A stretch of 64,000 nt of DNA, taken from contig NVQB01000001.1 in NCBI GenBank assembly GCA_002319075.1, positions 1,116,001-1,180,000 of the forward strand, written 5' to 3'. The position numbers and the translations under genes were made by a program. A model generated the notes under the pieces. The model had not been told where the DNA came from and made no database searches. It was given only the letters and a program-made list of their open reading frames with translations. Shown one piece after another: positions 20,317-59,641 of the stretch. The stretch's first letter is position 1. Each line of letters starts with the position of its first letter. This DNA comes from Sphingobacteriaceae bacterium (GTDB taxonomy: Bacteria; Bacteroidota; Bacteroidia; B-17B0; Aurantibacillaceae).

Positions 20317-22020
20317 ATGAACAAAACGCCGGGCAGGTTATTAAAGATCACTAAAAGGACATTTGGAATTCTTCTTGTACTCGTGTTTATTTTTGTGATC
20401 TATTTTATCAGCGCAATTTATCAACCCCTTCCTAAAATAGCAGAGACTTCTCTTCAAAACACAGAAGTAAAGGTTATCTCACCTGACTTTAGAACTCTTG
20501 GAAACAATTGGCTTCGCAAAAGCGAGTCTGGTTTGTACGAAATGTATCTTGAAGGGGATGGCTTTGAGCGCGGTGTTGTGAATGGTAAATTAACGAAAGA
20601 TCTTGCTGAGTGGCAGGAAACAGTTTTTATTAAACAAATCAGGGAGCTGGTTCCATCTGAAAATTACCTCAACTTTTTAAAATATTTTGTTGCCTATTTT
20701 AACCGCAACATGCCAGATCATATTAGCAAAGAATATTTGGATGAAATTTACGGCGTGTCCTTAAGCGCGTCTGATAAATACGACCGCCTGGCTCCTAAAT
20801 ATTACAGAATCCTAAATTACCACAGTGCTCACGATATCGGTCATGCGCTGCAGGACAAAAACATGGCAGTGGGCTGCACCTCTTTTGGCGTTTGGAACAA
20901 TAGAACCTCAGACGGAAAAATGCTCCTGGGGAGAAATTTCGATTTTTTTGCGGGAGATGATTTTGCGAAAAATAAAATTGTGTGTTTTACAAAACCTGCA
21001 AAAGGCTATAAATTTATGTATGTAACCTGGGCGGGTTTCACAGGAGTGGTATCCGGAATGAATGATAAAGGATTAACCGTAACTATTAACGCTTCTAAAT
21101 CTGATATTCCGAATAGTGCCGCAACACCCATTTCTTTATTGGCAAAAGAAATTTTACAGTACGCCAAAACAATCGACGAAGCTTATAAAATTGCTCAGGA
21201 AAGAAAAACATTTGTATCGGAATCTATCCTGATTGGATCATCGCTTGATAAGAGCGCGGCACTTATTGAAAAAACACCTAGTAAGATCGATCTCTATACC
21301 GAAAATGGCGAAGAGCTTATTTGTTCGAATCATTATCGCGGAGGCTTGTTTGAGAAAGATGCTATTAATAACAAAAACAAAATAGAAAGCTCTTCGCTGT
21401 ACAGAAATTTCCGAATGCAACAATTGTTGAGTAGAACAAAACGCTTTAACCCCGAAGAGGTTGCAAAGGTTTTGCGTGATCAAAATGGTTTGAATGATCG
21501 TGCTATAGGCTTAACAAATGAAAAAGGAATTAATCAACTTATAGCTCATCATTCCATTATTTTTAAACCGGAAGAAGGCCTTGTCTGGGTTTCTACAACT
21601 CCTTATCAGTTGGGAAAGTATATTTGTTACGATCTTACTAAAGTATTTAACGAAGCTCCAGGGATGTCTGTCAGTAAGGAAATACAAGACAGTTCTAAAG
21701 TCATTGCCGCCGATCCCTTCCTTAGTTCTAATGATTACCAGAAGTTTTTGCTTTTTAAGCGCTTAAAGTCTTACATCCAATATTGCACCAAAAGTGCTTA
21801 CGATTTAAAAGTGGCAGACTCGTTTATTAACGCGTTTGTAAGTTCTAATCCAAACAGTTATTTCACTTACTGGATTATTGGAGATTATTATACGAAAGAA
21901 AAAAATTACGCAGAAGCAAATCGTTATTACCAGGAGGCTTTAACGAAAGAAGTAGCCACCCAGAAAGAAGCGGCTGCAATTAAAGACCGTCTTGTTTCAC
22001 TTGAAAAGAAAAAATCGTAA
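20317..22020 (+). CDS. C45-family autoproteolytic acyltransferase/hydrolase (Ntn fold), membrane-anchored
   Basis: 567 residues. One membrane segment (about 14-34) precedes a C45/acyl-CoA:6-APA acyltransferase-like Ntn-hydrolase domain. The expected autocatalytic site is G186-C187 in VGCTSFGVWNN, with GKMLLGRNFDF after it. The C-terminal 80 residues look helical and TPR-like (YFTYWIIGDYYTKEKNYAEANRYYQEAL). Family members cleave themselves to expose Cys and then make or break amide or ester bonds. The stop overlaps by 1 bp the ATG of a PaaK-like ligase, followed by an acyltransferase, so the three form one operon from a TATATTTG promoter. An acyl-transfer or hydrolysis step in pigment lipid assembly is inferred from this setting. 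The true substrate is unknown. Confidence 0.75.
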   Translation: MNKTPGRLLKITKRTFGILLVLVFIFVIYFISAIYQPLPKIAETSLQNTEVKVISPDFRTLGNNWLRKSESGLYEMYLEGDGFERGVVNGKLTKDLAEWQETVFIKQIRELVPSENYLNFLKYFVAYFNRNMPDHISKEYLDEIYGVSLSASDKYDRLAPKYYRILNYHSAHDIGHALQDKNMAVGCTSFGVWNNRTSDGKMLLGRNFDFFAGDDFAKNKIVCFTKPAKGYKFMYVTWAGFTGVVSGMNDKGLTVTINASKSDIPNSAATPISLLAKEILQYAKTIDEAYKIAQERKTFVSESILIGSSLDKSAALIEKTPSKIDLYTENGEELICSNHYRGGLFEKDAINNKNKIESSSLYRNFRMQQLLSRTKRFNPEEVAKVLRDQNGLNDRAIGLTNEKGINQLIAHHSIIFKPEEGLVWVSTTPYQLGKYICYDLTKVFNEAPGMSVSKEIQDSSKVIAADPFLSSNDYQKFLLFKRLKSYIQYCTKSAYDLKVADSFINAFVSSNPNSYFTYWIIGDYYTKEKNYAEANRYYQEALTKEVATQKEAAAIKDRLVSLEKKKS

Positions 22021-23294
22021 TGGCCGGAACAGAAACAACCCATACAGGTTTAAAAGATTTGTTACGTTATGTGGCCATGCGTTCACCTTTCTACCAAAAA
22101 CTTTTCGAAAAAAATAAAATTCTTATTCAGGATATAAATACTCCCGAAGATCTGAAGAACATTCCCTTCACTGAAAAAGAAGATCTGCAGAACTTCACAA
22201 ATGAATTTATTTGTGTTCCGAAACATAAGCTGATTGACTACGTTACAACCTCTGGAACCACCGGGAAGCCTGTTACATTAGCTCTTACAGATGCCGATCT
22301 GGAACGGCTCGCATTGAACGAATACAACTCTTTTAAGACGGCTGGTATTGGTGAAGAAGATATTATTCAACTAATGACCACCGTAGATCGTCGTTTTATG
22401 GCCGGCCTCGCCTATTTTTTGGGCGCCCGTAAATTGGGAGCGGGAATTGTGCGCGTGGGGAATGGTTTACCAGAGCTTCAATGGGACACTATCAGCAATA
22501 TTGAACCAACAGTTATTATCTGTGTGCCTTCGTTTGTGCTGCATTTGATCGCTTATGCGGAAGCGAATAACATTGATTACAAAAAGTCTTCTATAAAAAA
22601 AATCATTTGCATAGGAGAAGCTATCCGTAATTCGGATTTTACACTGAATACTCTCGGAAAAAAAATTACGCAAAAATGGGATGTTTCACTTTACTCGACT
22701 TATGCTTCAAGCGAAATGGCAACAGCTTTTACAGAATGTGAAGCTTTTAGAGGCGGGCATTTGCAGAGTGATTTATTGATTTCAGAGATAATTGATGAAA
22801 ACGGCAATCCTGCCAAAGCAGGTGAAGCTGGCGAGCTCGTAATTACTACATTAGGCGTGGAAGGAATGCCGCTGATCCGTTTTAAGACCGGAGACATGTG
22901 CATTGCTCATACTGAAATTTGCAGCTGTGGAAGAGAAAGCCTGAGATTGAGCCCGGTATTGGGACGAAAAAAGCAAATGATCAAATACAAGGGAACAAGT
23001 TTGTATCCCAATGCCATTTACGATATTTTAGAAACCATCGACCAGGTAAAAAATTACCAGGTTGAAGTGAGCACAAATAGCAATGGCACAGATGAGATAC
23101 AAATTCACTTGGGCGTGAATGAAAAAACAAAAATTAAGGAAGAGGATATACTAAATACTTTTCGGGCCAAATTACGAGTAGCCCCCCGGTTGAATTTCTT
23201 AAGCCCAGAAGAAGTCAATCAACTACTTCAACCCAAGAACAGCAGAAAACCTATAAAATTTATTGACAGGAGAGAACACAACACATTACTATGA
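22020..23294 (+). CDS. phenylacetate-CoA ligase (PaaK)-like adenylate-forming enzyme
   Basis: 424 residues, the length of PaaK and coenzyme F390 synthetase-type ligases. Motifs: the phosphate-binding loop TTSGTTGKPV (about 76-85), YSTYASSEMATAF (the A5-like region), LIRFKTGDMC and GRKKQMIKYKGTSLYPNAI (C-terminal hinge). A CSCGRES segment near residue 300 may be metal-binding, as in relatives. It activates an aryl or acyl acid as an adenylate and passes it to CoA or a carrier protein. Next to a C45 enzyme and an acyltransferase, and 8 kb from a tyrosine ammonia-lyase, a 4-hydroxycinnamate or fatty-acid substrate is plausible. There are no phenylacetate-degradation genes here. It overlaps the next gene by 4 bp. 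Confidence 0.8.
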   Translation: MAGTETTHTGLKDLLRYVAMRSPFYQKLFEKNKILIQDINTPEDLKNIPFTEKEDLQNFTNEFICVPKHKLIDYVTTSGTTGKPVTLALTDADLERLALNEYNSFKTAGIGEEDIIQLMTTVDRRFMAGLAYFLGARKLGAGIVRVGNGLPELQWDTISNIEPTVIICVPSFVLHLIAYAEANNIDYKKSSIKKIICIGEAIRNSDFTLNTLGKKITQKWDVSLYSTYASSEMATAFTECEAFRGGHLQSDLLISEIIDENGNPAKAGEAGELVITTLGVEGMPLIRFKTGDMCIAHTEICSCGRESLRLSPVLGRKKQMIKYKGTSLYPNAIYDILETIDQVKNYQVEVSTNSNGTDEIQIHLGVNEKTKIKEEDILNTFRAKLRVAPRLNFLSPEEVNQLLQPKNSRKPIKFIDRREHNTLL

Positions 23295-24466
23295 TTGAAC
23301 AAAAAAGGAGCGATTTTGCGCAGGAAATTGATTTCGAGGACATCCGGGTTTTTTATGACGAAGAGGTAAACGAGGTTACTAAAAAATTAATTCACGATCC
23401 GGTTTTTATGCCGATGATAAATTATCTGTGGCCGGATATGACTTTTGAAGAAGTTAAGGAGAAAGCAGAACGTGTGCAAAGTAACAGAGACTTTCAACTC
23501 GAATTTATGCACGGTGCTATTCGCCGGATAATCGAAATGAGCTCTACAGGCCTTACGAGCAGTGGTTTTGAACAGCTGGATCCAAACAAGGGCTATCTTT
23601 TTGTAGGAAATCATCGCGACATTTTATTAGACGCGGCCATCCTGCAGGTGCTTTTGGTAGAACATGGCATGCCCACTTCAGAAATTACCTTTGGAAGTAA
23701 TTTAAAAGAAAAAGGCTTTGTAACTGACTTTGGCAAATTGAACCGTATGTTCACGGTTCAGCGCGAAGGAACCAGCAAAGAGCTTTACGAAATTTCAAAA
23801 AAATTATCGGCTTATATTCGTCACACCATCGTTGACAAAGTTGTTTCTGTTTGGATTGCTCAACGCAATGGCCGGACAAAAGATGGTCACGATACAACTC
23901 AGAGCGGGCTTTTAAAAATGCTGAACATCAGCGGCAAAAAAAGTTTTTCTGAAAATTTTGCCCAGCTGGCAATTGTTCCTATTACGATCTCTTATGAATA
24001 CGAACCCTGCGATCATTTGAAAGTTCAGGAACTTTATTTATCCAGTCTGCATACCAAGTATACTAAAGCCCAGGGAGAAGACCTCAACAGTATTGTTACC
24101 GGCATTAAACAATTTAAGGGAAGAATTCATATGAGTGTGGGTACTCCTATTGAAGAAAAAGAATACCAGTACATTGATAAAATCATTAACGAGAATGATA
24201 AAATCAAAGCTTTAACAGCTATGATAGACAAGCGCATTCACCATGATTACAAGCTTTACCCCGTTAATCACATTGCATGCGACATACTTCACGAAACCAA
24301 CTTATTTGAATCGTTTTACAGCGAAGAGGAAAAAAATAATTTCATTAAATACATGGAAGAAAAAATTTCGCTTATTGAAGGCGAGAAAGATGTTCTTCGA
24401 AACTTGTTTTTAAAGATGTATGCTCAGCCAACCATAAATAAAATTCATCTGAACGAGAATAATTAA
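23291..24466 (+). CDS. 1-acyl-glycerol-3-phosphate-type acyltransferase (PlsB/PlsC superfamily)
   Basis: 391 residues. The acyltransferase block I is NHRDILLDAAIL (about 108-119), which satisfies H-x4-D with L-L between. Block II/III-like parts are FTVQREG and VSVWIAQRNGRTKDG, and block IV is LAIVPITISYEYEPCD. The protein is longer than PlsC (about 240) and resembles the PlsB-type soluble acyltransferases annotated as glycerol acyltransferases in Bacteroidota. It is the last gene of the C45-ligase-acyltransferase operon (4-bp overlap with the ligase) and is followed by a strong terminator. It may act on a pigment-linked or aminolipid acyl group rather than on bulk phospholipid; this is inference. 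Confidence 0.8.
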   Translation: MIEQKRSDFAQEIDFEDIRVFYDEEVNEVTKKLIHDPVFMPMINYLWPDMTFEEVKEKAERVQSNRDFQLEFMHGAIRRIIEMSSTGLTSSGFEQLDPNKGYLFVGNHRDILLDAAILQVLLVEHGMPTSEITFGSNLKEKGFVTDFGKLNRMFTVQREGTSKELYEISKKLSAYIRHTIVDKVVSVWIAQRNGRTKDGHDTTQSGLLKMLNISGKKSFSENFAQLAIVPITISYEYEPCDHLKVQELYLSSLHTKYTKAQGEDLNSIVTGIKQFKGRIHMSVGTPIEEKEYQYIDKIINENDKIKALTAMIDKRIHHDYKLYPVNHIACDILHETNLFESFYSEEEKNNFIKYMEEKISLIEGEKDVLRNLFLKMYAQPTINKIHLNENN

Positions 24467-24624: not shown

Positions 24625-25233
24625 ATGAAAAAATTAAAATTAGCTTTATCAGCGTTTATTTTGCTTGCATCATTTGTAACCAGCCAGGCTCAAGTTAGGC
24701 TTGAAAGTGGCGATTTAGCTCCGCTAAAAGGAGTTACAAAAGTAAATATTGTTTATGATTATTCTAAAATGGCAGTTGGCGGTTATGCTACTGAACAAGA
24801 ATACATAAACAAAAAGATGGACGACTATAAAAAAGAGCCTGAAAAACAGACTAAATGGAAAGATGGTTGGTTTGGTGCCCGTAAAGCACGTTATGAGCCG
24901 AAGTTTGAAGAGTTGTTTAACTCTGTTGGTTCTAAAACAGGTATTATGGGAGTAAACAATGCAACAGACGGTCCGGTAACATTAAAAGTTGAAACAACAT
25001 TTACTGAGCCAGGTTTTAACGCAGGAGTTGTTAGAAAATCTGCTTCATTAGACTTTAAATGTACTTTCTCTAAGGACGGAAAAGATTTTGCAACCTATAC
25101 GATCAGGAATGTACCCGGCGGAACTGCTATGGGATATGATTTTGATGCGGGCTCCCGTATCGCAGAAAGCTATGCTAAAGCAGCAAAAATGTTAATGAAA
25201 GACGTAAACAAGCGTTTGAAAAAAATTAAATAA
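24625..25233 (+). CDS. secreted protein of unknown function
   Basis: 202 residues with a clear signal peptide (KKLKLALSAFILLASF, ending SQAQ at about 23). The mature part is basic and lysine-rich. It starts with a strand-rich segment (VRLESGDLAPLKGVTKVNIVYDYSKMAVGGY) and ends in an amphipathic helix (IAESYAKAAKMLMKDVNKRLKKIK). It has no cysteines for anchoring except one in DFKCTF. It resembles the small periplasmic, DUF4136/LPS-assembly-like proteins only in general shape, so I do not assign a family. It stands alone between its own promoter and a two-way terminator. Confidence 0.65.
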   Translation: MKKLKLALSAFILLASFVTSQAQVRLESGDLAPLKGVTKVNIVYDYSKMAVGGYATEQEYINKKMDDYKKEPEKQTKWKDGWFGARKARYEPKFEELFNSVGSKTGIMGVNNATDGPVTLKVETTFTEPGFNAGVVRKSASLDFKCTFSKDGKDFATYTIRNVPGGTAMGYDFDAGSRIAESYAKAAKMLMKDVNKRLKKIK

Positions 25234-28736: not shown

Positions 28737-29975
28737 TTAATTTATTACTTTTCTGTGACGGATAATTTTCGCCAGGGAAGCAATGGCCTTGTCGTGTTTT
28801 TTCACGAATGGATTTTCAAGATCCCAAACATACCCTGCTAATACCGAACAAATTTGTTTTTTAAATTCGGGATCCGGATTTTCAGAAAAGAAAACATCGT
28901 GAAGATCACCTGTGTACCAGGCCGCCACGTAAGAACGGAAAGTGTTTATTCCTTGCATCATGTGATCGGTGTATTGCGTTTGCCAGTCGACAGATTTTCC
29001 ATTTAAAAAATCGCAAACAAGTTTACCTGCTTTATTTCCTGATTCCATGGCGAAAGTAACACCTGAAGAAAAAATAGGATCTAAAAATTCTGTAGCATTT
29101 CCACAAAGCACAAAACCGTCTCCAAATAATTGTTTGGTGGAAATCGCATACCCTTCAATGCTGCGCGGTTCAAACATCATTTCTGCATCACTAAAACGCT
29201 CTCTTGTATTATCGTCCTTATGAATGATGGCTTTCATTCTTTCAGTAGGATCTTGTGGCAGATCCTTGTAAAATTCGGGATCAGCAACAAACCCAACGGA
29301 TGTCACCCCATTTGAAAAAGGAATGATCCAGATCCAGGTACGGGGCTCATGCACCACAACCGTTATACGATTGCCATCCACACCCTCAGGACGTTTCAGA
29401 TCTTTAAAGTGAGTGAAATGTGTTTTACGGGGCTCAAAATTTGAAGGTTTATCCAAATTAAACATACGGGGAATCACTCTTCCGTAGCCACTTGCATCAA
29501 CAATATATTTTGCTTCTATGTGTTTTTCTTTGCCTTCTTTATCTACAACAGTTGTTACAGAATCCGTTCCGTGAAATTCAATTTTAGTAACTGCTGTTTC
29601 GTGTTCCACATCAACTCCCATTGAAGCAACGGTTTGCGAAAGAATCTGATCAAATTGACTGCGTGGCACTTGCCAGGTCCAGTTCCAGCCTTCGCTAAAC
29701 TGATCTGTAAAATTAAAATCGCAAATTTCCTTACCGCGAACAAATTTGGCACCGAATTTTTCCTGGAACCCGGCTTTTTTTACCGCTTCCAGCAATCCTG
29801 CTTCATCCAGGTGATCCATCACACGTGGCAGTAAACTTTCGCCGATAACAAAGCGAGGAAATTTTTCTTTCTCCACAACCTTTACTTTAAATCCTTGTTT
29901 GTTTATCATAGAACTGGCTATGCAGCCCGCAGGGCCTGCACCAATTACTAACACATCCACCTTTTCTATTTGCAT
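28737..29975 (-). CDS. flavin-dependent halogenase-like FAD oxidoreductase
   Basis: 412 residues. FAD-binding GAGPAG (12-17), the GESLLPR loop (45-51), K73 in EKFGAKF at the place of the catalytic lysine of flavin halogenases, and W214-I-W216-I-I218-P219, a match to the WxWxIP motif that separates halogenases from monooxygenases. A VDASGYGR strand and LCGNATEFLDPIFSSG at the second FAD motif follow. It is most like the phenol/carrier-bound substrate branch, not the tryptophan halogenases, which are about 520 residues. It overlaps the upstream methyltransferase gene by 1 bp and is transcribed away from the tyrosine ammonia-lyase. Chlorinated flexirubins are known, so ring chlorination is the likely role. 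Geranylgeranyl reductase-type oxidoreductase is the alternative. Confidence 0.78.
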   Translation of the reverse strand: MQIEKVDVLVIGAGPAGCIASSMINKQGFKVKVVEKEKFPRFVIGESLLPRVMDHLDEAGLLEAVKKAGFQEKFGAKFVRGKEICDFNFTDQFSEGWNWTWQVPRSQFDQILSQTVASMGVDVEHETAVTKIEFHGTDSVTTVVDKEGKEKHIEAKYIVDASGYGRVIPRMFNLDKPSNFEPRKTHFTHFKDLKRPEGVDGNRITVVVHEPRTWIWIIPFSNGVTSVGFVADPEFYKDLPQDPTERMKAIIHKDDNTRERFSDAEMMFEPRSIEGYAISTKQLFGDGFVLCGNATEFLDPIFSSGVTFAMESGNKAGKLVCDFLNGKSVDWQTQYTDHMMQGINTFRSYVAAWYTGDLHDVFFSENPDPEFKKQICSVLAGYVWDLENPFVKKHDKAIASLAKIIRHRKVIN

Positions 29976-31054: not shown

Positions 31055-31067
31055 TGTGTAAAGAGGG

Positions 31068-31196
31068 TAAATATAAGACAAAGAAAAGCACTAAATCCTG
31101 ATAAATATCCGCTTTTTTCAAGACCACCGGCTTTGTTAATTTAGCCGCTTTTCAGCAAAAAGTTTTTGTATATTCGCGGTCCGATAATTAGCGGAC
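31068..31196. promoter_or_regulatory. divergent promoter region of the methyltransferase/halogenase and TAL operons
   Basis: Minus strand: TATATTTA at 31068-31075, 14 bp before the methyltransferase ATG. Plus strand: TATATTCG at 31169-31176, 40 bp before the TAL start. A small inverted repeat GTCCG (31179-31183) / CGGAC (31192-31196) lies in the expected 5' leader of the TAL transcript. The 161-bp gap is the natural control point for the pigment locus. No regulator gene lies next to it. Confidence 0.5.
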
Positions 31197-45474: not shown

Positions 45475-45477
45475 AGT

Positions 45478-47274: not shown

Positions 47275-47276
47275 AC

Positions 47277-47537
47277 ATGGAAGTACAGGAAATAGTGACA
47301 AATTTGAAATCACAAATTATTGAGCAATTAAATCTGGAAGGAATGAAGCCCGAAGATATAGATACTGATGCGCCCTTATTTGGATCAGGTCTGGGACTTG
47401 ACTCTATTGATGCCCTGGAACTTATTGTACTTCTTGAAAAAAATTACAATGTTAAGATTGAAGATCCTAAAGAATCGAAAGCGATTTTTGCCTCTGTAAA
47501 AACAATGGCCGATTACATTGCTGTTCATTCAAAATAA
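47277..47537 (+). CDS. acyl carrier protein (second module)
   Basis: 86 residues; phosphopantetheine site S43 in GLGLDSIDALEL. It is a close paralogue of the ACP at 42025 and opens the second ACP-KS-CLF set (47277-49813). Both lead into KS genes with similar starts. It lies 2 bp after the half-KS gene. Confidence 0.92.
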   Translation: MEVQEIVTNLKSQIIEQLNLEGMKPEDIDTDAPLFGSGLGLDSIDALELIVLLEKNYNVKIEDPKESKAIFASVKTMADYIAVHSK

Positions 47538-47562
47538 AAATTTCTTTATTTTTTCTTAATTC

Positions 47563-48753: not shown

Positions 48754-48754
48754 G

Positions 48755-50577: not shown

Positions 50578-51202
50578 ATACCTCGTCTTTTTTATAGCTA
50601 TTTTTTCATCGGTCATCTGTCATGCACAGGTTTTTAAGCCTATGAAAGACACTCTTGCCTTTAAGCAAAAAGTTGAGAAAATGTCAAAAGAAACTAACTC
50701 TATTGAGAGTGATTTTGTTCAGGTTAAGAATTTATCTGTACTCTCTGAAAAAATAACAAGCAAAGGTTCGTTTTCTTTCATGAAACAAAATAATCTACGC
50801 TGGGAATATGTAGATCCCTACAAGTATGTTATCGTTATAAACAAGGACAAGATCCTGATCAAAGACGAAAATAACAAAGTCAAAAAATACGATATGAATG
50901 CGAACAAAGTATTTAAAGAGATCAATGATATTATGATCTCCTGCGTAAATGGCGATATTTTGAAGTCAAATAAATTCAGTATTCATTATTTCGAAAATGA
51001 GAAAGGTTATAAACTCGAACTTCTTCCTAATGTGAAATCCATGAAAGAAAGTTTGAAAAAAATAAACATGTATTTTGACAAAAATGTAACTTCGGTCGTT
51101 AAACTTGAAATGATTGAAAATGGTGACGATAATACGACTATTGATTTCATGAATAAAAAATTAAATGCGCCAGTTTCTCCGGATAAATTTATTCTTAAGT
51201 AG
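50570..51202 (+). CDS. LolA-like outer-membrane lipoprotein carrier protein
   Basis: 210 residues, signal peptide 1-20 (ends CHAQ). The LolA fold is visible in SIESDFVQVKNLSVLSEKITSKGSFSFMKQNNLRWEYVDPYKYVIVINKDKILI. Aryl polyene clusters carry a LolA homologue (ApeL), which is thought to carry the lipid across the periplasm. It is separate from the housekeeping LolA because it lies inside the operon, overlapping the deacetylase by 8 bp and the next lipoprotein gene by 38 bp. Confidence 0.85.
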   Translation: MPKYLVFFIAIFSSVICHAQVFKPMKDTLAFKQKVEKMSKETNSIESDFVQVKNLSVLSEKITSKGSFSFMKQNNLRWEYVDPYKYVIVINKDKILIKDENNKVKKYDMNANKVFKEINDIMISCVNGDILKSNKFSIHYFENEKGYKLELLPNVKSMKESLKKINMYFDKNVTSVVKLEMIENGDDNTTIDFMNKKLNAPVSPDKFILK

Positions 51203-51812
51203 TATTCTTTGCCTCGCGCTCGTTTCCTGCTCTCCGGCAAGCGGACATAAATTTGTGCGTACAGCAATTGTCACCGACAAAGATGTTCATCCCATTGTCA
51301 ATAAAAACACCTCTCTTCTTTACAAAGCAAAAATTGATTTATTTAACCGTCACTTTAGCGGTTTAATAGTTCTGAAGCAGCTCGATGAAACCACTTCACA
51401 TCTGACCTTTGTAACCGAAATTGGCATGAAAATGTTTGATTACGAAATAAGAGACAAAGACTTCAAATTGGTTTACGTCTTCGAACCTTTAAATAAACCT
51501 AAAATTACAAAGCTACTAACAGAAGACATGAAACTTATTTTATTGCAGCATCTTTTGAATCACGATGCAAACATGTATGAAAAGGAAGATCATAAAGTAT
51601 ACAAGGTTAAAGAAGATTTCCGATACTATTACGCGATAACGAATAAAACACAAAACGTTGGAAAAATAATTAAAAAAGGAACTCTGTTTAAAAAAGTAAA
51701 AGTCCTTTACCTTTACAACGATAGTCTGAATGCCAGCAAAATCAAGCTAAAACACAAAGGGCTCATCCGACTAAAAATAGAATTAAACGCGATTACTAAA
51801 ACAGCCTCCTGA
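51165..51812 (+). CDS. lipoprotein of the pigment cluster, function unknown
   Basis: 215 residues. Lipoprotein signal ending LALVSC22 (RQFLRINLFLSSILCLALVSC). The mature part is basic and beta-rich (FNRHFSGLIVLKQLDETTSHLTFVTEIGMKMFDYEI), recalling the DUF3261/ApeN-like lipoproteins of aryl polyene loci. It overlaps the LolA-like gene by 38 bp, an unusually long overlap, and the dehydratase-like gene by 1 bp. A LolB-like acceptor for the LolA-carried pigment is plausible. Confidence 0.72.
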   Translation: MRQFLRINLFLSSILCLALVSCSPASGHKFVRTAIVTDKDVHPIVNKNTSLLYKAKIDLFNRHFSGLIVLKQLDETTSHLTFVTEIGMKMFDYEIRDKDFKLVYVFEPLNKPKITKLLTEDMKLILLQHLLNHDANMYEKEDHKVYKVKEDFRYYYAITNKTQNVGKIIKKGTLFKKVKVLYLYNDSLNASKIKLKHKGLIRLKIELNAITKTAS

Positions 51813-52198
51813 TGAAAAACACTTTACTTACTGACTTTTTTACTGAGCTTTCTTCCACTTATACTTCTGAAAATTCTTCAGATTTTAAATGTCGCGTACG
51901 TTTAAATCCCGACCATCCCGTTTACAAAGGACATTTTCCTCAAATTCCGATTGCGCCCGGAGTATGTTTAACCCAAATGCTCAAAGAAATTTTAATGGAA
52001 AAATTTCAAGAAGAACTGGTAATGAAAAGCGGCGACAACATCAAATTTTTGGCCATGATCAATCCAAAAGAAACCCCGGAACTCGAAATTACTTTTTCAG
52101 TAAAAAAAACAGACGCTACTTTGGATGTAAATGCCACATATTCTAACGATAGCAGGGCTTACACCAAGTTTAAAGGCAAGTTTTCTATCGGGGAATAA
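51812..52198 (+). CDS. FabZ-like hotdog protein with Glu-to-Gln change at the catalytic site
   Basis: 128 residues, single FabZ-type hotdog domain: HPVYKGHFPQIPIAPGVCLTQMLKEI (residues 35-60). The catalytic His is present (H41). The residue 14 after it, where FabZ has the essential Glu (GHFP-x6-8-GVL-x2-E), is Gln55, followed by MLKE. It is therefore either inactive as a dehydratase or uses another acid. ApeI-type proteins hold this position in aryl polyene clusters. Together with the ApeP-like protein at 44603 it might form a heteromer, as some hotdog pairs do. ATG overlaps the upstream stop by 1 bp. Confidence 0.75.
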   Translation: MKNTLLTDFFTELSSTYTSENSSDFKCRVRLNPDHPVYKGHFPQIPIAPGVCLTQMLKEILMEKFQEELVMKSGDNIKFLAMINPKETPELEITFSVKKTDATLDVNATYSNDSRAYTKFKGKFSIGE

Positions 52199-52273
52199 AA
52201 TGCCTTAAAGCTGCCGGAAATCGCCCTTTTTTGTTATTTTTACACTCCCCTTTTTTTTGGGCAGTTTAGGGTT

Positions 52274-53458
52274 ATGAGCGAAGACAGATACACATTAAAT
52301 CAGCGATTTGCAGACTTAAAATGCTGTGTCATTATTCCGACCTATAACAACGAAAAAACACTTTCAAAAGTGATTAGTGACACCCTGCAGTACACCGATA
52401 AAATTATCGTGGTTAATGATGGTGCAACCGACAGTACACCAAAAATCCTTGAAACGTTTGGAGATTCCATTAAAGTTTTAACGCATGCTGGTAATCTTGG
52501 AAAAGGAATGGCTTTGCGAGACGGTTTTAAAAAATCTGTTGCGCTAGGTTATGATTATGCCATTACTATTGATAGCGACGGACAACACTTTCCAAGTGAT
52601 CTCGAAAATTTTCTGAATAAAATTGAAGAGCATCCGGGATCTTTAATTATCGGTGCAAGAAACATGAACTCAGAAAATGTTCCCGGTAAAAGTAGTTTCG
52701 GACATAAATTTTCAAACTTTTGGTTCCAGGTGGAAACAGGCATTAAGATGCCGGATACACAATCTGGCTACCGTTTGTATCCGGTAAAAAAACTTGAGAA
52801 ACTGAATTTTTTTTCTCCGCGCTTTGAATTTGAAATTGAGGTCATTGTAAAATCAGCATGGCGCGGTATCCCTGTGATCTCGATGCCTATTAAGATATTT
52901 TATGCAAAAGGCGCTGAGCGAATTTCACACTTTCGCCCTGCAAAAGATTTTACGCGCATCAGCATCCTCAACACTTACCTGGTTATCCTGGCATTTAGCT
53001 GGTACAAACCATTACGCTTTTTTCGCGGACTCACTCCGGCTAACCTCAAGGCTTTTATTCAAAAACATTTCTTTAATAAAGATGAGTCTGTTCTTAAAAA
53101 ATCGTTATCAGTTAGTCTTGGCATTTTTTTCGGAATCGTGCCCATTTGGGGCTATCAGCTGGTTGCGGCAATAGCAGCTTCCTATTTATTTAAGTTAAAT
53201 AAGGCCATAGTGATTCTTACGGCAAACATTAGTATTCCGCCTTTGCTGCCTTTCATTCTAATTGCAAGCGTAAAAACGGGAGAACTTTTTACAGGAACAG
53301 AAACTGATTTGTCCCTCCGCAACATTTCATTGAAAACATTAAAATTAAATGCTTTTACTTATCTTGCAGGAGCCTGTATTCTGGCGGTTCTTTTTTCGCT
53401 GTTCATGGGTCTCACAACCTTTATTACCCTTAGCGTGATCAGAAAGAAAAAAAGTTAA
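52274..53458 (+). CDS. glycosyltransferase family 2 with C-terminal DUF2062 domain
   Basis: 394 residues. GT-A domain about 15-235: VIIPTYNNEKTLSKVI, VVNDGATDSTP, AITIDSDGQHFPSDLE (the D-x-D metal site) and TQSGYRLYP. After it, a DUF2062 domain (about 270-390) with three or four membrane helices: SVSLGIFFGIVPIWGYQLVAAIAA, AIVILTANISIPPLLPFILIAS. This two-part architecture resembles dolichol-phosphate-mannose-synthase-like GT2 proteins, and ApeJ-like genes in aryl polyene clusters also combine a GT2 with another domain. It would attach a sugar to the pigment anchor or to a lipid. A 75-bp gap precedes it and 3 bp separates it from the MMPL gene. Confidence 0.82.
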   Translation: MSEDRYTLNQRFADLKCCVIIPTYNNEKTLSKVISDTLQYTDKIIVVNDGATDSTPKILETFGDSIKVLTHAGNLGKGMALRDGFKKSVALGYDYAITIDSDGQHFPSDLENFLNKIEEHPGSLIIGARNMNSENVPGKSSFGHKFSNFWFQVETGIKMPDTQSGYRLYPVKKLEKLNFFSPRFEFEIEVIVKSAWRGIPVISMPIKIFYAKGAERISHFRPAKDFTRISILNTYLVILAFSWYKPLRFFRGLTPANLKAFIQKHFFNKDESVLKKSLSVSLGIFFGIVPIWGYQLVAAIAASYLFKLNKAIVILTANISIPPLLPFILIASVKTGELFTGTETDLSLRNISLKTLKLNAFTYLAGACILAVLFSLFMGLTTFITLSVIRKKKS

Positions 53459-53461
53459 TCT

Positions 53462-56400
53462 ATGTTGGCCCTACGCTTATATAACTTTTTTCAACGGCAT
53501 AAAGCTTTGCTCTTTAGCAGTTTGGTTCTATTGTTTTTGACCTTTGGCTATTTTAGTTCTCAGATCGAAATGGAAGAAGACATCACCAAGTTTATTCCTA
53601 AAGATAAAAAGCTCGACGAGGTAAATTTTATTCTTCAGAATCTGAAGATAAAAGACAAACTCGTTATCAATCTTTATAATTCCGACAGTACAGCATCCGA
53701 CCCTTCAGATTTAATGGCCTGTGCCGACCGTCTTGCGGACACTTTACAAAAAACGCACGAAGAGTTTATTAAAGAACTGAATTACAAAGTTTCTGATGGT
53801 TTAATGATGCAGACCTATGGAACTTTTTATAACAACCTGCCTCTATTTTTGGAAGAAAAAGATTATTCAAAAATCGAAGGTCTGCTACAGGTCGATAGTA
53901 TTAAAAGTACGCTCCGTTCAAACTATAGAACTTTATTGTCACCTACCGGCATGATCCTCGGGCGCTACATGAGGCGTGACCCGTTGAACTTAACGCCTTT
54001 AACTCTCAAAAAAATCCAAAGTCTGCAATTCGATGAAAATTTTGGTGTTAATGAAGGTTACATACAAACTCAGGATCACAAAAATCTTTTGCTTTTTATC
54101 ACGCCGTCGGTCCCTCCAAATGAAACAAAGATCAATAAAGCCTTTATTGAATCACTGGATGGCATAGTAAAACACCTTACAGAAGAATTTCAGGGAAAAG
54201 TTGTTATTGAATATTATGGGGCTACGCCCGTGTCGGTAGGCAACTCGGTACAAGTTCGTCACGATAGCATTTTCACTTCTCTCATCGCGCTTTGTGTGAT
54301 CATGGTGCTGTTGTTTTTATTTTTCCGCCGTCTCCTGGTAATTCTCTACATTCTTTTACCCGTAGCTTTCGGCGGACTATTTTCCCTTACGCTTCTCTAT
54401 TTTATTAAAGGAGAAATATCGGCTATTGCTTTAGGAGCCGGTTCTATAGTATTGGGAATTGCCATTAATTATTCCCTTCATTTTTTCACCCATTATAAAC
54501 ACGAACGTTCGGTAAAAAAAGTTATTGAAGATCTTACCTTACCCATGTTGGTGGGATGTACTACAACAGTTGGCGCTTTTTTAAGTCTGCAGTTTGCTAA
54601 ATCACAAGCTTTGCATGACTTCGGTATGTTTGCAGGTTTCAGTCTTATTGGAGCTGTTCTATTTTCAATTATTGTTCTTCCACACCTGTTAAAAACAAAA
54701 AAAGATAAAAAAGAAGAAGATGCTCATCCCGCCAAAGAATCTTTCATCGACAGAGCATTGTCTTATCCACTCGACAAAAATAAATCGGTTGTCATACTGG
54801 CTTTTATTTTCACCATCATTTTTGCCTTCACTGCCCGCAACGTAAGTTTCGAAAGCGACATGATGAAAATGAATTATCAGTCGGATCAATTAAATAAGTC
54901 ACAACAAAATATTGAGCGTATAAATAAATATTCTCTAAAGTCTGTTTATGTTATTTCGAAAGGAAAAGATCTTAACGATGCTTTAAAAGCAAATGAGCGG
55001 GCTACAGCAAAATTAGCCGCGCTAAAAAATGAAGGCTTTGTGGGAAAATATTCTTCTATCAGCTCCGTACTTGTATCTGATTCCTTACAAACCTTGCGTA
55101 TAGAGCGCTGGAATACTTTCTGGACAAAAGCCCGTAAAGATTCTTTGAAACAAAATCTTCAGCGTTACAGTAAAGCTTACAAATTTAAAGAAGATGCCTA
55201 TAATGAATTCTTTGCATTGTTAGATAAAGACTTTAAACCAATTGCTCTTTCAGAATTAGATAGTCTTAAAAAATTAGTGGCCAACGATTGGATTACCGAA
55301 AACAAAGATCTCACAACAATTGTGAGTCTCGTAAAAACGGAGCCAGAAGTCAAACAAAAAGTCTACGATAAATTCGAAGGAGATTCAGATGTTCTTGTCT
55401 TTGATAAACAATTCATGACAAACCAGTTTATTGAGATCATCAGTTCTGATTTTAACCTGATTCTTTTAATTACCGCTTTGCTTGTTTTTGGATTCATGTT
55501 GTTATCGCATGGAAGAATTGAACTGGCAATTATAAATTTCCTGCCAATGTTTATCAGTTGGCTTTGGATCTTAGGAATAATGGGCATCCTGGGACTCAAA
55601 TTCAACATTATAAACATTATCATCTCGACTTTTATTTTTGGTTTAGGCGACGACTATTCTATTTTTATTATGGATGGTCTTGGTCATGAATACAAATACG
55701 GCAGAAAAAATCTTGCTTCTTATAAAACTTCCATCTTTCTTTCCGCACTCACAAACATTGTTGGTGTTGGTGTTTTAATTTTCGCCAAACATCCGGCTCT
55801 TAAATCCATTGCTGCTATCACTATTATCGGCATGTGTACCGTTCTGTTCATTTCTTTCATAGTGCAACCGCTTTTTTATAATTTTCTGATTCTAAATCGC
55901 CGTAAGCGTGGTTTACTGCCCTACACCTTATTCAATCTTCTTCTAACAGGCGTTGGGTTTTTAATCTTCATTGCAATTAGTTTGCTGGCACACGCTTCTG
56001 CTGTAACACTCTTTACCATTACCCCGGCCCCTCGCAAAAAGAAAAAATTAATTTTTCATTACCTGATCATGTATGCCTGCCGCATTATGGTATATCTTGT
56101 TGCTAACGTAAAGAAAAACATTATTAATCCTCAAAATGAAATATTCGAAAAACCTGCTGTCATTATAAGCAACCATCAATCCTTTATTGACCTTGCCTTA
56201 CTTTTAATGTTGAATCCTAAAATTGTTGTCTTCACAAATGATACTGTTTGGAATTCGCCACTCTACGGACTCATAGCGCGTATGGCCGATTATTATCCTG
56301 CCTCGCGGGGTTACGAAAGTGCCATAGACCAAATGAAAAAGCTTACAAATGACGGTTATTCTGTTTTAATTTTTCCGGAGGGAACCCGTTCTGAAACAGG

Positions 56401-57340
56401 AGAAATTCTTCGGTTTCATAAAGGCGCATTTTATTTAGCAGAACAATTAAACCTTGAAATTCTTCCCATACTTTTGCATGGCGCTGGAGGCGTTGTTCCC
56501 AAAGGCGATTTTCACTTCAAAGAGGGTGAAGTAACCGTAAAATACCTCCCAAGAATTTTGCCAGAGGAAACAACTTACGGAACGGGATATAAAGAAAAAT
56601 CGAAAGCGATTCGTGACTATTTTAGAACGGAATATTCTGCCCTGCAAAAAGAAAAAGAAACAGTAGATTATTTCCGTTCAAAATTAATAAAGAATTACAT
56701 TTATAAAGGTCCAGTACTCGAATGGTATTGCCGCATCAAAGTTGGGCTGGAAGGAAATTATAAAAACTTTGAAAGTTACCTGCCTAAAAAAGGAAAGATC
56801 GTCGACATTGGTTGCGGCTACGGATTTTTGTCACTCATGCTCGGTTTCATGAGTAAAGAACGTGAGATTACAGGCATCGATTACGATGAAGAAAAAATAA
56901 ACATAGCTGCGAACTGCGTTTCTAAAAATAAAACCACAGAATTTATTCATGCCGATGTTACGCAGTATGAATTTTCAGAATCAGATGCTTTTATAATCAA
57001 TGACGTGTTGCATTACCTGCCGCAAGAACAACAAGTGGCCCTTATAAAAAAATGCATAAGGAACTTAAATCCAAAAGGTGTCATGATTATTCGCGACGCG
57101 GATGCAGATAAAAAACAACGTCATCGTGGCACGCGTTACACTGAATTTTTCTCAACTAACTCAGGCTTTAATAAAACAAAAGAGGGCGGACTTCATTTTG
57201 CCTCAGCAGACCTTATTCGCTCTACTTTAAACGAATTTAATTTTATAGAATACCAACTCATCGACGACACCAAATTAACATCGAATGTTACCTTTGTTAT
57301 TCGTCACACAAACAAACTACAAAGTGGGATTAACGGATAG
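53462..57340 (+). CDS. MMPL exporter fused to LPLAT acyltransferase and SAM methyltransferase
   Basis: 1292 residues with three parts. (1) 1-860: MMPL/RND transporter with about 12 helices in two repeats, each with a large periplasmic loop (VNFILQNLKIKDKLVINLYN; SFESDMMKMNYQSDQLN). The helix 4 and 10 segments are GAGSIVLGIAINYSLHFFTHYK and IFGLGDDYSIFIMDGLGHEYKYG, the expected proton-relay sites. (2) About 870-1075: a PlsC-like LPLAT domain, SNHQSFIDLALLL (H-x4-D) and FPEGTRSETGEI. (3) About 1085-1285: a class I methyltransferase, KIVDIGCGYGFLSLML and TGIDYDEEKIN, INDVLHYLP. Aryl polyene loci encode these as separate proteins. The frame has no stop or frameshift. It overlaps the next gene. 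Confidence 0.88.
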   Translation: MLALRLYNFFQRHKALLFSSLVLLFLTFGYFSSQIEMEEDITKFIPKDKKLDEVNFILQNLKIKDKLVINLYNSDSTASDPSDLMACADRLADTLQKTHEEFIKELNYKVSDGLMMQTYGTFYNNLPLFLEEKDYSKIEGLLQVDSIKSTLRSNYRTLLSPTGMILGRYMRRDPLNLTPLTLKKIQSLQFDENFGVNEGYIQTQDHKNLLLFITPSVPPNETKINKAFIESLDGIVKHLTEEFQGKVVIEYYGATPVSVGNSVQVRHDSIFTSLIALCVIMVLLFLFFRRLLVILYILLPVAFGGLFSLTLLYFIKGEISAIALGAGSIVLGIAINYSLHFFTHYKHERSVKKVIEDLTLPMLVGCTTTVGAFLSLQFAKSQALHDFGMFAGFSLIGAVLFSIIVLPHLLKTKKDKKEEDAHPAKESFIDRALSYPLDKNKSVVILAFIFTIIFAFTARNVSFESDMMKMNYQSDQLNKSQQNIERINKYSLKSVYVISKGKDLNDALKANERATAKLAALKNEGFVGKYSSISSVLVSDSLQTLRIERWNTFWTKARKDSLKQNLQRYSKAYKFKEDAYNEFFALLDKDFKPIALSELDSLKKLVANDWITENKDLTTIVSLVKTEPEVKQKVYDKFEGDSDVLVFDKQFMTNQFIEIISSDFNLILLITALLVFGFMLLSHGRIELAIINFLPMFISWLWILGIMGILGLKFNIINIIISTFIFGLGDDYSIFIMDGLGHEYKYGRKNLASYKTSIFLSALTNIVGVGVLIFAKHPALKSIAAITIIGMCTVLFISFIVQPLFYNFLILNRRKRGLLPYTLFNLLLTGVGFLIFIAISLLAHASAVTLFTITPAPRKKKKLIFHYLIMYACRIMVYLVANVKKNIINPQNEIFEKPAVIISNHQSFIDLALLLMLNPKIVVFTNDTVWNSPLYGLIARMADYYPASRGYESAIDQMKKLTNDGYSVLIFPEGTRSETGEILRFHKGAFYLAEQLNLEILPILLHGAGGVVPKGDFHFKEGEVTVKYLPRILPEETTYGTGYKEKSKAIRDYFRTEYSALQKEKETVDYFRSKLIKNYIYKGPVLEWYCRIKVGLEGNYKNFESYLPKKGKIVDIGCGYGFLSLMLGFMSKEREITGIDYDEEKINIAANCVSKNKTTEFIHADVTQYEFSESDAFIINDVLHYLPQEQQVALIKKCIRNLNPKGVMIIRDADADKKQRHRGTRYTEFFSTNSGFNKTKEGGLHFASADLIRSTLNEFNFIEYQLIDDTKLTSNVTFVIRHTNKLQSGING

Positions 57341-58853
57341 TAAATACGATATAGTAATTATCGGAAGCGGCCTGGGAGGCTTGTGCTCGGCTTACATTAT
57401 GTCAAAAGAAGGATACAAAGTATGTGTGCTTGAAAAAAACAGGCAACTCGGCGGAAGTCTCCAGATCTTTTCAAGAGACAAGGTTATTTTTGATACAGGC
57501 ATTCATTACATTGGTGGTTTAAGCGAGGGTCAGAATCTAAACAGGTACTTTAAATATTTCAACCTGATGGATAAACTGAAATTAAAGCAGATGGATAAAG
57601 ATGGTTTTGATATTGTTACTTTCAGAGGCGATCCAAATGAATACAAACATGCGCAAGGTTATGGCAATTTTATAAATACACTTAGCGCACAATTTCCTGG
57701 TGAGAGGGCCAACCTCGAGCGTTACTGTAATAAAATGAAGGAGATATGTAGCTTTTTTCCACTCTATAATTTAGAAGAAGGAACAAAAGATCTTTTCACT
57801 GCCACATTTTTAGAAACAGACACCAAAGCCTATATTGAATCGGTTACTTCGAATAAAAAACTACAAAATGTACTCGCCGGCACAAATCCTTTATATGCTG
57901 GCGAACCAAATAAAACACCCCTTTATGTACACGCACTGGTGGTTAACACCTACATAGAAAGTGCCTGGAAGTGCATTGATGGCGGCGCGCAGATAGCCAA
58001 ACACCTTTCTGACAGCATAAAAGAAATGGGCGGGGAGATTTACAATTATTGCGAAGCGGCAAAATTTAATTTTAGCGGCCACGAAATAAAAAGTGTGGAG
58101 CTTACCGACGGACGTAAGATTGAAGGAAAAACATTTATCTCAAATTGCGACCTATCAAAGACAATGGACATGATCGAGCCGGGGCATATTCGTCAGGCAT
58201 ACCGTCACAGAATTCAGAGTCTTGAAAACACGCCTTCCTCTTTCATTTTATACATTGTACTTAAAAAAGAAACCATTCCTTACTTTAATCATAACAAATA
58301 CCATTATGATATTGATGACGTTTGGGATGCCATTAATTACGACGAAAATACCTGGCCAAAAGGCTTCGCTTTATTTCCGCAATCTTCAACAAAAAATCCT
58401 GCTTATACCGAAAGTCTGATCGTTATGGGTTATATGAACTACAAAGAAATGCAGGAGTGGTCGGATGTAGTAAATATTATTCCAAACAAAGTAAATGAGC
58501 GTGGTGAAAACTACGAAGAGTTTAAAGAAAGAAAATGCCAGTTACTCTTTAAGACTCTTTTTGCGCACATGCCAGAGCTGAAAGGTAACATTGAATCCTA
58601 CTATTCCTCTACCCCGCTTACTTACAGAGATTATATTGGCAGTCGCGATGGCACCATGTATGGCATAGCAAAAGACTACCGCGATCCTCTAAAAACATTT
58701 ATTTCTCCGAAAACAAAAGTTCCGAATTTATTGCTCACCGGGCAAAACCTCAATCTACACGGTGTACTGGGCGTAACGGTTAGCTCTGTTGTTACCTGTT
58801 CAGAAATTTTGGGTCAACAATACCTGATTAAAAAAATAAAAGAATATTCGTAA
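57324..58853 (+). CDS. CrtI/retinol-saturase-like FAD-dependent oxidoreductase
   Basis: 509 residues from GTG 57324, chosen because the Rossmann motif KYDIVIIGSGLGGLCSAYIMSKEG starts within 8 residues. An ATG at 57285 would add 13 residues and a longer overlap with the MMPL fusion; both stay open. The phytoene-desaturase-type fold follows: GGSLQIFSRDKVIFDTGIHYIGG and a C-terminal LLLTGQNLNLHGVLGVTVSSV, the FAD tail. This family includes carotenoid desaturases and retinol saturases. In flexirubin loci such an enzyme could desaturate, saturate or isomerise the polyene. Overlaps the downstream phosphatase gene by 1 bp. Confidence 0.8.
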   Translation: MGLTDSKYDIVIIGSGLGGLCSAYIMSKEGYKVCVLEKNRQLGGSLQIFSRDKVIFDTGIHYIGGLSEGQNLNRYFKYFNLMDKLKLKQMDKDGFDIVTFRGDPNEYKHAQGYGNFINTLSAQFPGERANLERYCNKMKEICSFFPLYNLEEGTKDLFTATFLETDTKAYIESVTSNKKLQNVLAGTNPLYAGEPNKTPLYVHALVVNTYIESAWKCIDGGAQIAKHLSDSIKEMGGEIYNYCEAAKFNFSGHEIKSVELTDGRKIEGKTFISNCDLSKTMDMIEPGHIRQAYRHRIQSLENTPSSFILYIVLKKETIPYFNHNKYHYDIDDVWDAINYDENTWPKGFALFPQSSTKNPAYTESLIVMGYMNYKEMQEWSDVVNIIPNKVNERGENYEEFKERKCQLLFKTLFAHMPELKGNIESYYSSTPLTYRDYIGSRDGTMYGIAKDYRDPLKTFISPKTKVPNLLLTGQNLNLHGVLGVTVSSVVTCSEILGQQYLIKKIKEYS

Positions 58854-59641
58854 TGCTGCCAGATAACATTTTAAATCAGGTAATCCTGACTGCAAAAACC
58901 GCCGGAGCCTTTATCAGACAAGAGCGTGAAAATTTTAATTACGCAAATGTCGAAATTAAAGGTTTGAATGATCTTGTGAGTTACGTAGACAAAACAGCAG
59001 AAGAGCTTATCGTGAAAGAGCTACATAACATTTATAAAGATGCCGGTTTTATAGTAGAAGAAAATACAAGAAGTGAAAAAAGAGACTATAATTGGATAGT
59101 TGACCCTTTGGATGGCACAACAAATTTTATACACGGCATTCCTTGTTATGCTGTAAGTATTGCTTTAGAATACAAAGGTGAAATAGTTCTTGGTGTTGTT
59201 TATGAAGTGAGTCGCGATGAGTGTTTTTACGCGCAAAAAGATAAAGGCGCTTTTTTGGACGGAAGAGCTATCCAGGTTTCGTCGCGTCAAACTGTTTCTG
59301 AAAGTCTTATTGCCACAGGCTTTCCCATTTATGACTTTGGAAGGGTTGACAACTACCTTGGCGCTCTAAAATATTTTATGGAGCGTACGCATGGCTTGAG
59401 AAGAATTGGTGCTGCATCTGTTGATCTTTGTTACGTGGCTTGCGGCCGAATGGATGCCTATTTTGAATACAATTTAAAACCCTGGGATGTTGCTGCAGGG
59501 GCGCTCATAGTAAAAGAAGCAGGTGGATCAGTTTATGATTTTTCGGGTGGAAATAATTGGCTCTTCGGTAAAGAAGTCTCGTGCTCGAATAAATTACTCG
59601 ACGAAGAGTTTAACACAATCATTAGGGAATTTTTTTCGTAA
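58853..59641 (+). CDS. inositol monophosphatase family protein
   Basis: 262 residues. Metal and phosphate sites DPLDGTTNFIHG (about 84-95), VEENTR with the upstream Glu, and WDVAAGALIVKEAGG (about 208-222). It belongs to SuhB/IMPase-like Mg-dependent sugar phosphatases, of which CysQ is a more distant cousin. It is the last gene of the cluster, with ATG overlapping the upstream stop. It may be a passenger with a general role or may dephosphorylate a sugar phosphate for the GT2. No terminator is seen in the 13 bp before the convergent 59655 gene. Confidence 0.85.
   Translation: MLPDNILNQVILTAKTAGAFIRQERENFNYANVEIKGLNDLVSYVDKTAEELIVKELHNIYKDAGFIVEENTRSEKRDYNWIVDPLDGTTNFIHGIPCYAVSIALEYKGEIVLGVVYEVSRDECFYAQKDKGAFLDGRAIQVSSRQTVSESLIATGFPIYDFGRVDNYLGALKYFMERTHGLRRIGAASVDLCYVACGRMDAYFEYNLKPWDVAAGALIVKEAGGSVYDFSGGNNWLFGKEVSCSNKLLDEEFNTIIREFFS

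Follow-up and report, generated by a model that had tools for sequence, protein, structure and literature searches.

Does a flexirubin locus that is laid out in three arms and carries four ketosynthases make an unusual product, or is it an ordinary pigment cluster whose apparently surplus enzymes have a place of their own? The question is raised by positions 20317-59641 of a 64,000-nucleotide stretch of DNA from a Sphingobacteriaceae bacterium (GenBank assembly GCA_002319075.1, contig NVQB01000001.1, positions 1,116,001 to 1,180,000 of the forward strand). This whole stretch is called the window below, and coordinates of the locus are counted from its first letter. The host genome measures 5.65 Mb, and the G+C content of the window is 34-41% in 2-kb steps. 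A preliminary description of this DNA had assigned the locus to the flexirubin/dialkylresorcinol (DAR) type and had taken its three arms and several odd members as possible signs of an unusual product. Our data imply that the cluster is ordinary; what is new is that its ketosynthases most likely divide between a polyene set and a resorcinol set.

Identity of the locus

Judged from its encoded proteins, the window almost certainly holds a full and complete-looking gene set, for biosynthesis as well as export, of a yellow-orange flexirubin-type pigment. Seven proteins pass the curated NCBIfam cut-offs for flexirubin and DAR families: FlxA (824.1 bits with NF053541, cut-off 700), FlxY (672.6 bits with NF053551, cut-off 520), DarB (617.7 bits with NF053539, cut-off 550), DarH (469.2 bits with NF053550, cut-off 300), FlxB (396.9 bits with NF053542, cut-off 340), DarG (196.7 bits with NF053545, cut-off 170) and LolB2 (114.3 bits, cut-off 60). 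Scores above these cut-offs place the identification far beyond chance. The type II set of ketosynthase (KS), ketoreductase (KR), dehydratase (DH) and acyl carrier protein (ACP) genes is present as well, together with the outer-membrane transfer genes LolA, LolB2, MMPL and GT2. Two results weigh against the assignment: the FlxJ-type methyltransferase stays below its cut-off (523.9 bits with NF053543 vs 560), and a Pfam/NCBIfam scan of the window protein that we call DarA gave no match. We take this protein to be DarA by its place before DarB; the gene preceding DarB in three Flavobacterium clusters is 38-40% identical to it.

The flexirubin/DAR identity is thus borne out by the curated models and by a gene order common to Flavobacterium. 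The genes on which the earlier assignment was built were all confirmed in place: tyrosine ammonia-lyase (TAL), DarA, DarB, LolA, MMPL and the exporters, and on the + strand three ACPs (starting at 34772, 42025 and 47277), four beta-ketoacyl synthases (KAS; 33532, 42301, 45478 and 47563), two chain length factors (CLFs; 43458 and 48707) and the dehydratases (44603 and 51812). Both CLFs stand, but a third, short CLF-like gene at 46618-47274 has to be added to them. FlxY exceeds its cut-off in 3 of the 37 genomes of the host genus (own genome counted, some genomes incomplete), which suggests that the pigment is patchy within the genus. The cluster is one of very many: our FlxY scan alone gave at least 546 stretches, and 1,234 flexirubin clusters have been counted in 2,680 Flavobacteriaceae genomes (PMC10734526).

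A ketosynthase triad probably linked to the DAR genes

The four KAS, two CLFs and three ACPs most likely form two sets. The polyene (flx) set consists of KS1, KS3 with the short CLF, KS4 with CLF2, ACP1 and ACP3; the other set is a DAR-linked triad, ACP2-KS2-CLF1. The triad closes a block that lies between the LpxL-like acyltransferase and the dehydratase DH1:

36033..36506, + strand: sp157, no Pfam family
36510..37409, + strand: DarA, dialkylresorcinol aromatase, named by place
37414..38559, + strand: DarB, ketosynthase/cyclase
38588..39992, + strand: DarG and DarH, the latter a BtrH-related acyltransferase
39993..42021, + strand: DAR-block ABC transporter, ATPase and permease (genes at 39993 and 40741)
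42025..44534, + strand: ACP2-KS2-CLF1, DAR-linked type II synthase triad (ACP2 42025, KS2 42301, CLF1 43458)

A CLF1 profile made from the window and from two congeners with the cluster (G001 and G018; G and L numbers are our handles for genomes and loci) was searched against 395 genomes of the class at E up to 1e-10, and matches of both CLF types were obtained in 74 of them. Typing covered the 30 matches that became loci. In their tree 23 fall with CLF1 and 7 with CLF2 (SH-aLRT 100 for the split), so that a CLF1-type gene is present in at least 23 of the 395 genomes. In the KS tree, KS2 and KS4 (16 rows each) form sister clades with SH-aLRT of 98 and 97. A further KS match of G166 (at 19045, 30% identity), labelled KS2 by its best query, lies outside the KS2 clade, in which the other 16 rows stand together. 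The trees were computed with LG+G4, with SH-aLRT as the only support and a midpoint root. Their rows are pieces aligned by tblastn, with gaps removed and stops written as X (matches of G246, G420, G426 and G423 have an internal stop), and rows below 80% of the query length were dropped. In the KS tree, joined long branches were flagged by the program, affecting KS3 with KS1 and the stray G166 row. Because the trees separate KS2 and CLF1 from KS4 and CLF2, we regard the triad as an old paralogue and not as a local duplication.

DarB (E up to 1e-60) is found in all 23 CLF1-type genomes, compared with 71 of the 395 overall, and FlxA (E up to 1e-130) in 21 of the 23, compared with 68 of 395. Directly after DAR-block genes the triad is found in 12 of the 23: it follows the ABC permease in the window, G018, G424, G405, G418, G246, G319, G423, G213, G358 and G182, and DarH in G304 (in G319 this neighbourhood is split by a contig end). 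The order around the ABC pair is kept in G405, G418, G246, G423, G358 and G424. sp157 opens the DAR block in several genomes, standing before DarA in G405, G246, G423, G424 and G166. In G418, G246, G423 and G182 TAL and the DAR block that ends with the triad are on different contigs; in G405, G358 and G424 such a block lies next to the flx run without interrupting it. The arcuflavin operon of Azoarcus sp. BH72 can be compared by its printed gene order only: darA-B-D-E-F-I-C-J-K corresponds to DarA-DarB-DarG-DarH-ABC-ABC-ACP2-KS2-CLF1 of the window, with darE printed as BtrH-like, darF as ABC ATPase, darI as permease, darC as ACP, darJ as ketosynthase and darK as hypothetical protein (PMC3949708, Table 1). 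From the neighbourhoods of the triad together with the Azoarcus order, we read the window as a flx operon in which LpxL and DH1 are separated by an entire DAR block. The extra KAS, CLF and ACP are most likely part of the DAR operon.

A number of observations weigh against a firm tie between the triad and the DAR genes. Among FlxA genomes only, CLF1 occurs in 21 of 61 with DarB vs 0 of 7 without it, which is a weak link (Fisher one-sided p 0.065). Nine of the 23 triads do not adjoin DAR genes; in two of the nine (G045, G107) part of the DAR genes is within about 5 kb, and in the seven others (G420, G426, G370, G262, G206, G143, G175) no DAR gene is near on the stretch read, the contigs of G420 and G426 being shorter than 14 kb. 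In G213 and G304 a contig boundary separates DarA-DarB from the remaining block genes, and in G119 and G436 ACP2-KS2 stand in the DAR block with CLF1 elsewhere (L155, L174, L154, L179). Moreover, a CLF1-type gene was not established in 48 of the 71 DarB genomes, G166 has a DAR block with ACP2 and no adjoining KS2-CLF1 match, and the triad is absent from the three Flavobacterium clusters. Because of these last three observations, the triad is not essential for flexirubins in general.

Possible role of the triad

KS2 keeps its Cys-His-His motifs and ACP2 has a DSID-type site. As neither a reductase nor a dehydratase comes with the triad, an unreduced product would fit. A search of the PDB with KS2 returned FabF-type enzymes and, lower down, 6qsp, which is ApeO (PMC8358021); CLF1 matched nothing in the PDB, alone or as a profile. 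Our best guess is that the triad would be a dedicated supply of beta-ketoacyl-ACP for DarB. In a wider form, it could be that many Bacteroidota DAR operons include a minimal type II synthase, ACP2-KS2-CLF1, that charges a dedicated ACP with beta-ketoacyl chains left unreduced and passes these to DarB, that CLF1 would thus set the length of one resorcinol side chain, and that triad-less lineages, such as the Flavobacterium clusters read, draw on general fatty-acid intermediates. This wider proposal is tentative, and we consider it somewhat more likely to fail than to hold. Among mainly open-access literature no paper was found that assigns a function to the DAR-linked KS-CLF-ACP, and plasmid searches with DarB and CLF1 for named DAR operons carrying the triad found none. 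The locus separates polyene from resorcinol ketosynthases, makes the role of the triad testable and suggests that darK-type genes, printed as hypothetical, are chain length factors.

Alternative explanations

It could be argued that ACP2-KS2-CLF1 arose recently, as a copy of ACP3-KS4-CLF2 made in place, and has no separate function, given that both have the same ACP-KS-CLF content and order and that KS2 and KS4 are sister clades. However, KS2 and CLF1 group, with good support, with genes from other families of the class and not with KS4 and CLF2 of the same genome. The trees already refute recency and led us to reject such a duplication, and the motifs kept in KS2 likewise speak against a copy without function; we regard this explanation as extremely improbable. 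The possibility that the layout truly departs from the usual one and yields an unusual product, either two polyenes (by KS4-CLF2 and by KS2-CLF1) or a hybrid, would account for two full KS-CLF pairs, a third pair with a short CLF and three ACPs. KS2, as the sister of KS4, could also use polyene-like chains, and in the seven genomes mentioned above the triad is neither with nor near DAR genes. Nevertheless, this appears unlikely to us: within the window the triad is not equipped with its own ketoreductase, dehydratase or starter ligase, it directly follows DAR-block genes in 12 of 23 genomes, and for Azoarcus, with the same DAR order, a pathway with one pigment is described (PMC3949708).

Alternatively, darA/darB might make free dialkylresorcinol signals and the flx genes, as a product apart, an aryl polyene that is not esterified. 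The DAR block and TAL are on different contigs in G418, G246, G423 and G182, and at the E limits used DarB was not found in 7 of the 68 FlxA genomes. In the window, though, both halves are within one 28-kb single-strand gene run that includes DarH, and a darB mutation makes F. johnsoniae flexirubin-negative (as cited in PMC3992019), which renders separate products very improbable.

The polyene set and its probable short chain length factor

The remaining genes of the main run surround the DAR block as follows:

31216..32742, + strand: FlxA, tyrosine ammonia-lyase (TAL)
32795..33526, + strand: FlxB, ketoreductase
33532..35939, + strand: KS1 (with Cys-His-His motifs), ACP1 and LpxL-like acyltransferase, first half of the flx operon
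44603..49813, + strand: DH1, thioesterase (TE), KS3 with short CLF, ACP3, KS4 with CLF2, second half of the flx operon
49795..53458, + strand: polysaccharide deacetylase (PDA), LolA (50570), LolB2, DH2 and GT2-DUF2062, the assembly/export set
53462..57340, + strand: MMPL exporter-PlsC acyltransferase-methyltransferase fusion
57285..58853, + strand: FAD oxidoreductase (FADox) of phytoene-desaturase type
58853..59641, + strand: inositol-monophosphatase-family gene, pathway membership doubtful

The Cys-His-His motifs are found in all four KAS. In CLF1 and CLF2 the His motifs are missing, as is a Cys motif at the corresponding position; the single ACIS pattern of CLF2 begins nowhere near the active site, at residue 25. 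The short CLF (46618-47274, 218 amino acids) has none of the three KS motifs. Alone it matched nothing in the PDB, whereas a profile of 13 sequences reached the ketosynthase-family chain 6kxd_B, titled 'Ketosynthase', with E 1.3e-4; we take chain B of 6kxd to be the CLF of ishigamide synthase. KS3 itself had no PDB match at E 1e-30. In two Bacteroidales loci KS3 and the short CLF are one reading frame (L044 4034-5743, 570 amino acids; L049 3979-5715, 579 amino acids). We read the short CLF as the probable CLF partner of KS3, in a role comparable to that of ApeC beside ApeO (PMC8358021). The aryl polyene (APE) systems resemble the window in using a KS and CLF heterodimer plus a further KS (ApeO-ApeC, ApeR; PMC8358021); the window differs by its three KS-CLF sets, its tyrosine/coumarate start and its resorcinol half.

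As a separate observation, the single frames of L044 and L049 are natural KS-CLF fusions.

Layout of the locus compared with other clusters

Upstream of TAL, the window has two further arms and the genes between them:

20317..22020, + strand: C45-family autoproteolytic acyltransferase/hydrolase, candidate pathway gene (NF040521, 210 bits, cut-off 85)
22020..23294, + strand: FlxY, 4-coumarate-CoA ligase
23291..24466, + strand: PlsC-like acyltransferase (PF01553, 22.3 bits, slightly below the cut-off of 23)
24625..25233, + strand: sp202, 202 amino acids, secreted-looking, recurrent beside FlxY, no Pfam family
24625-28722: four genes without a clear pathway role
28737..29975, - strand: flavin-dependent halogenase-like enzyme (Trp_halogenase, 93.8 bits)
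29975..31081, - strand: FlxJ-type methyltransferase

The C45 arm, which had been placed 7 kb away, is indeed separate, but its corrected end is 24466, which leaves 4.3 kb to the halogenase arm and 6.75 kb to the main operon. The main operon, drawn from 31216 to 59641, stands as a same-strand run, while its last gene (58853-59641) belongs doubtfully to the pathway: this gene directly follows FADox in both congeners as well, and a match was kept in 0 of 5 other clusters of the same comparison. A Bacteroidota-type promoter pattern had 5 matches in the window vs 4.8 expected, which is no evidence.

For the comparison, named genomes were scanned with seven aligned FlxY proteins, and we used the best 80 of at least 546 stretches confirmed in this way; counts on these named loci therefore lean to close relatives. 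Their titles are Bacteroidota or, in a few metagenome-assembled genomes, Chlorobiota, and many end at contig ends, so that denominators vary (66, 60, 54, 69). Of the 66 named loci that hold 2.5 kb upstream of FlxY, 37 have a C45 gene within this distance and on the FlxY strand. With 5.5 kb upstream available (60 loci), the order is FADox-C45-FlxY in 28, FADox-FlxY without a C45 match in 9, C45 without FADox in 8 and neither in 15; the commonest single arrangement is hence a position behind FADox, where the operon ends on its 3' side. FlxY 5' of TAL, as in the window, was seen in 1 of the 54 named loci with 8 kb downstream (L017), and also in the short contig L025 (C45-FlxY-PlsC-halogenase(-)-TAL within 6 kb), G057, G424 and G166. 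A PlsC-like acyltransferase follows FlxY within 2.5 kb in 21 of the 80 named loci, 69 of which hold 2.5 kb there.

Among the 8 other clusters whose pre-TAL stretch was read, 6 have a halogenase close upstream of TAL that is directed away from it (G001 and G018, both with FlxJ between, G060, G061, G077 and G057; not G063 and G424), a count without G405, the sequence of which starts inside TAL. Among 43 distinct clusters, MMPL and acyltransferase share a reading frame in 40, and in 19 of the 40 this frame also contains a methyltransferase match; the window and congeners are included, and G060/L060, G061/L062 and G077/L093 are each counted once. We therefore rejected the MMPL-PlsC-methyltransferase fusion as an oddity. 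The three arms were likewise rejected as a sign of novelty, as their blocks recur elsewhere in other orders. The suggestion of an unusual product from arms and odd members is not supported: the C45-FlxY arm, the divergent halogenase and the giant MMPL-acyltransferase gene are all found in other clusters, and the congeners G001 and G018 have the window's order, except for the genes in the gap before the halogenase and, in G001, a stretch of 2.1 kb between CLF1 and DH1. As read from gene order, the structure is a flx operon with the whole DAR block between LpxL and DH1 and with the C45-FlxY-PlsC block on the 5' side rather than at the 3' end. LpxL is directly followed by DH1, without DAR genes between, in G405, G424 and the Aureispira anguillae plasmid pAUEa, where tblastn with window proteins gave TAL-KR-KS1-ACP1-LpxL-DH1-TE-KS3-shortCLF-ACP3-KS4-CLF2-PDA-LolA-LolB2-DH2-GT2.

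Some side observations concern these blocks. The flx polyene operon of pAUEa (L164 3733-18833) is plasmid-borne and is preceded by a phosphopantetheinyl transferase gene. In G001 a 2.1-kb gap lies between CLF1 and DH1 (L095 about 8924-11038), at the seam of DAR block and flx operon; its + strand, the only one read, has no frame of 150 codons. sp202 occurs within 6 kb of FlxY in 11 of the 80 named loci, three Pfam models match one member each among its 14 homologues, and it is a candidate unnamed flexirubin gene.

Proposed pathway and product

The most likely product, as predicted from the genes, is a ring-methylated, probably chlorinated aryl-polyene ester of a dialkylresorcinol. We infer all reactions in this host, including the roles of DarH, C45 and the triad. 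FlxA would convert tyrosine to 4-coumarate, which FlxY would activate; both reactions were demonstrated for the C. pinensis enzymes (PMC3992019). The aryl polyene would be extended by KS1, KS3 with the short CLF and KS4-CLF2 on ACP1 and ACP3, together with FlxB and the two dehydratases, and the ring would be decorated by the FlxJ-type methyltransferase (predicted methylation) and the halogenase (predicted chlorination). The best PDB chain for the latter is 3nix (E 3e-193), titled only 'Flavoprotein/dehydrogenase', followed by the halogenases 5bva, PltA and CmlS (E 1e-44 to 5e-42). The window enzyme has WIWIIP at 214 and FLDPIFSSG at 297, which fit WxWxIP and FxxPxxSxG, presumably the motifs of flavin-dependent halogenases.

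DarB and DarA would join two fatty-acid-type thioesters to a dialkylresorcinol, and ACP2-KS2-CLF1 probably prepares one of the two, a step in which we place lower confidence than in the others. DAR formation by DarA/DarB has been demonstrated, as has the need for darB and for part of the cluster in other species (PMC3992019). As a lead on chain length, F. johnsoniae, a member of the genus whose three clusters lack the triad, makes hexyl/propyl resorcinol (as cited in PMC9606717), whereas a heavier resorcinol fragment of m/z 293 is common to Azoarcus and C. pinensis (PMC3949708, PMC3992019). DarH most likely joins the polyene-ACP to a resorcinol hydroxyl. We consider DarH the candidate for ester formation because Table 1 of the Azoarcus paper has a BtrH-like gene in the DAR operon and no C45 gene (PMC3949708); searches of C45 and DarH against solved structures gave no match. 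LolA, LolB2, MMPL, GT2 and the ABC pair are the probable factors that bring the pigment into the envelope.

Relation to known systems

The main order of the window is common to three Flavobacterium clusters, F. phragmitis (L100-L101), Flavobacterium sp. CF136 (L108-L109) and F. subsaxonicum (L110-L111), which bears out the order in a genus of known producers; F. johnsoniae itself is not one of the three. The shared order is TAL-KR-KS1-ACP1-LpxL-DarA-DarB-DarG-DarH-ABC-ABC-TE-KS3-shortCLF-ACP-KS4-CLF2-PDA-LolA-LolB2-DH2-GT2-MMPL/PlsC-FADox, with the halogenase divergent from TAL and FlxY preceded by C45. The Flavobacterium clusters differ in having C45-FlxY at the 3' end, no ACP2-KS2-CLF1 and no FlxJ match, about 1.2 kb without a match separating TAL from KR, two DH1-type matches adjoining DarB, a weak sp157-like match between DH2 and GT2 instead of before DarA and, in 2 of the 3, a weak FADox match before DarA.

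Chitinophaga pinensis, likened to the window from the publication and not from sequence, has characterised FlxA and FlxY and is listed with beta-ketoacyl synthases, deacetylase, LolA, glycosyltransferase and exporter; its flx (Cpin_1853-1877) and dar (Cpin_6850-6851) genes lie apart, whereas they are interleaved in the window (PMC3992019). The pigment of Azoarcus is also taken as a polyene-DAR ester, but its operon contains a Phd/PilT pair that the window lacks, and its polyene is of xanthomonadin type from 3-hydroxybenzoate (PMC3949708).

A DarB-like ketosynthase gene is also carried by Bacteroides/Phocaeicola plasmids, as on the Bacteroides ovatus plasmid L163 (8992-10134; further matches H2 and H3), where no DAR block is annotated around it. 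DarB-like matches also lie in open frames of 616-635 amino acids in G025 (a congener without a FlxY match), G047, G078, G085, G243, G289 and G429, a length that would fit DarB fused to another domain.

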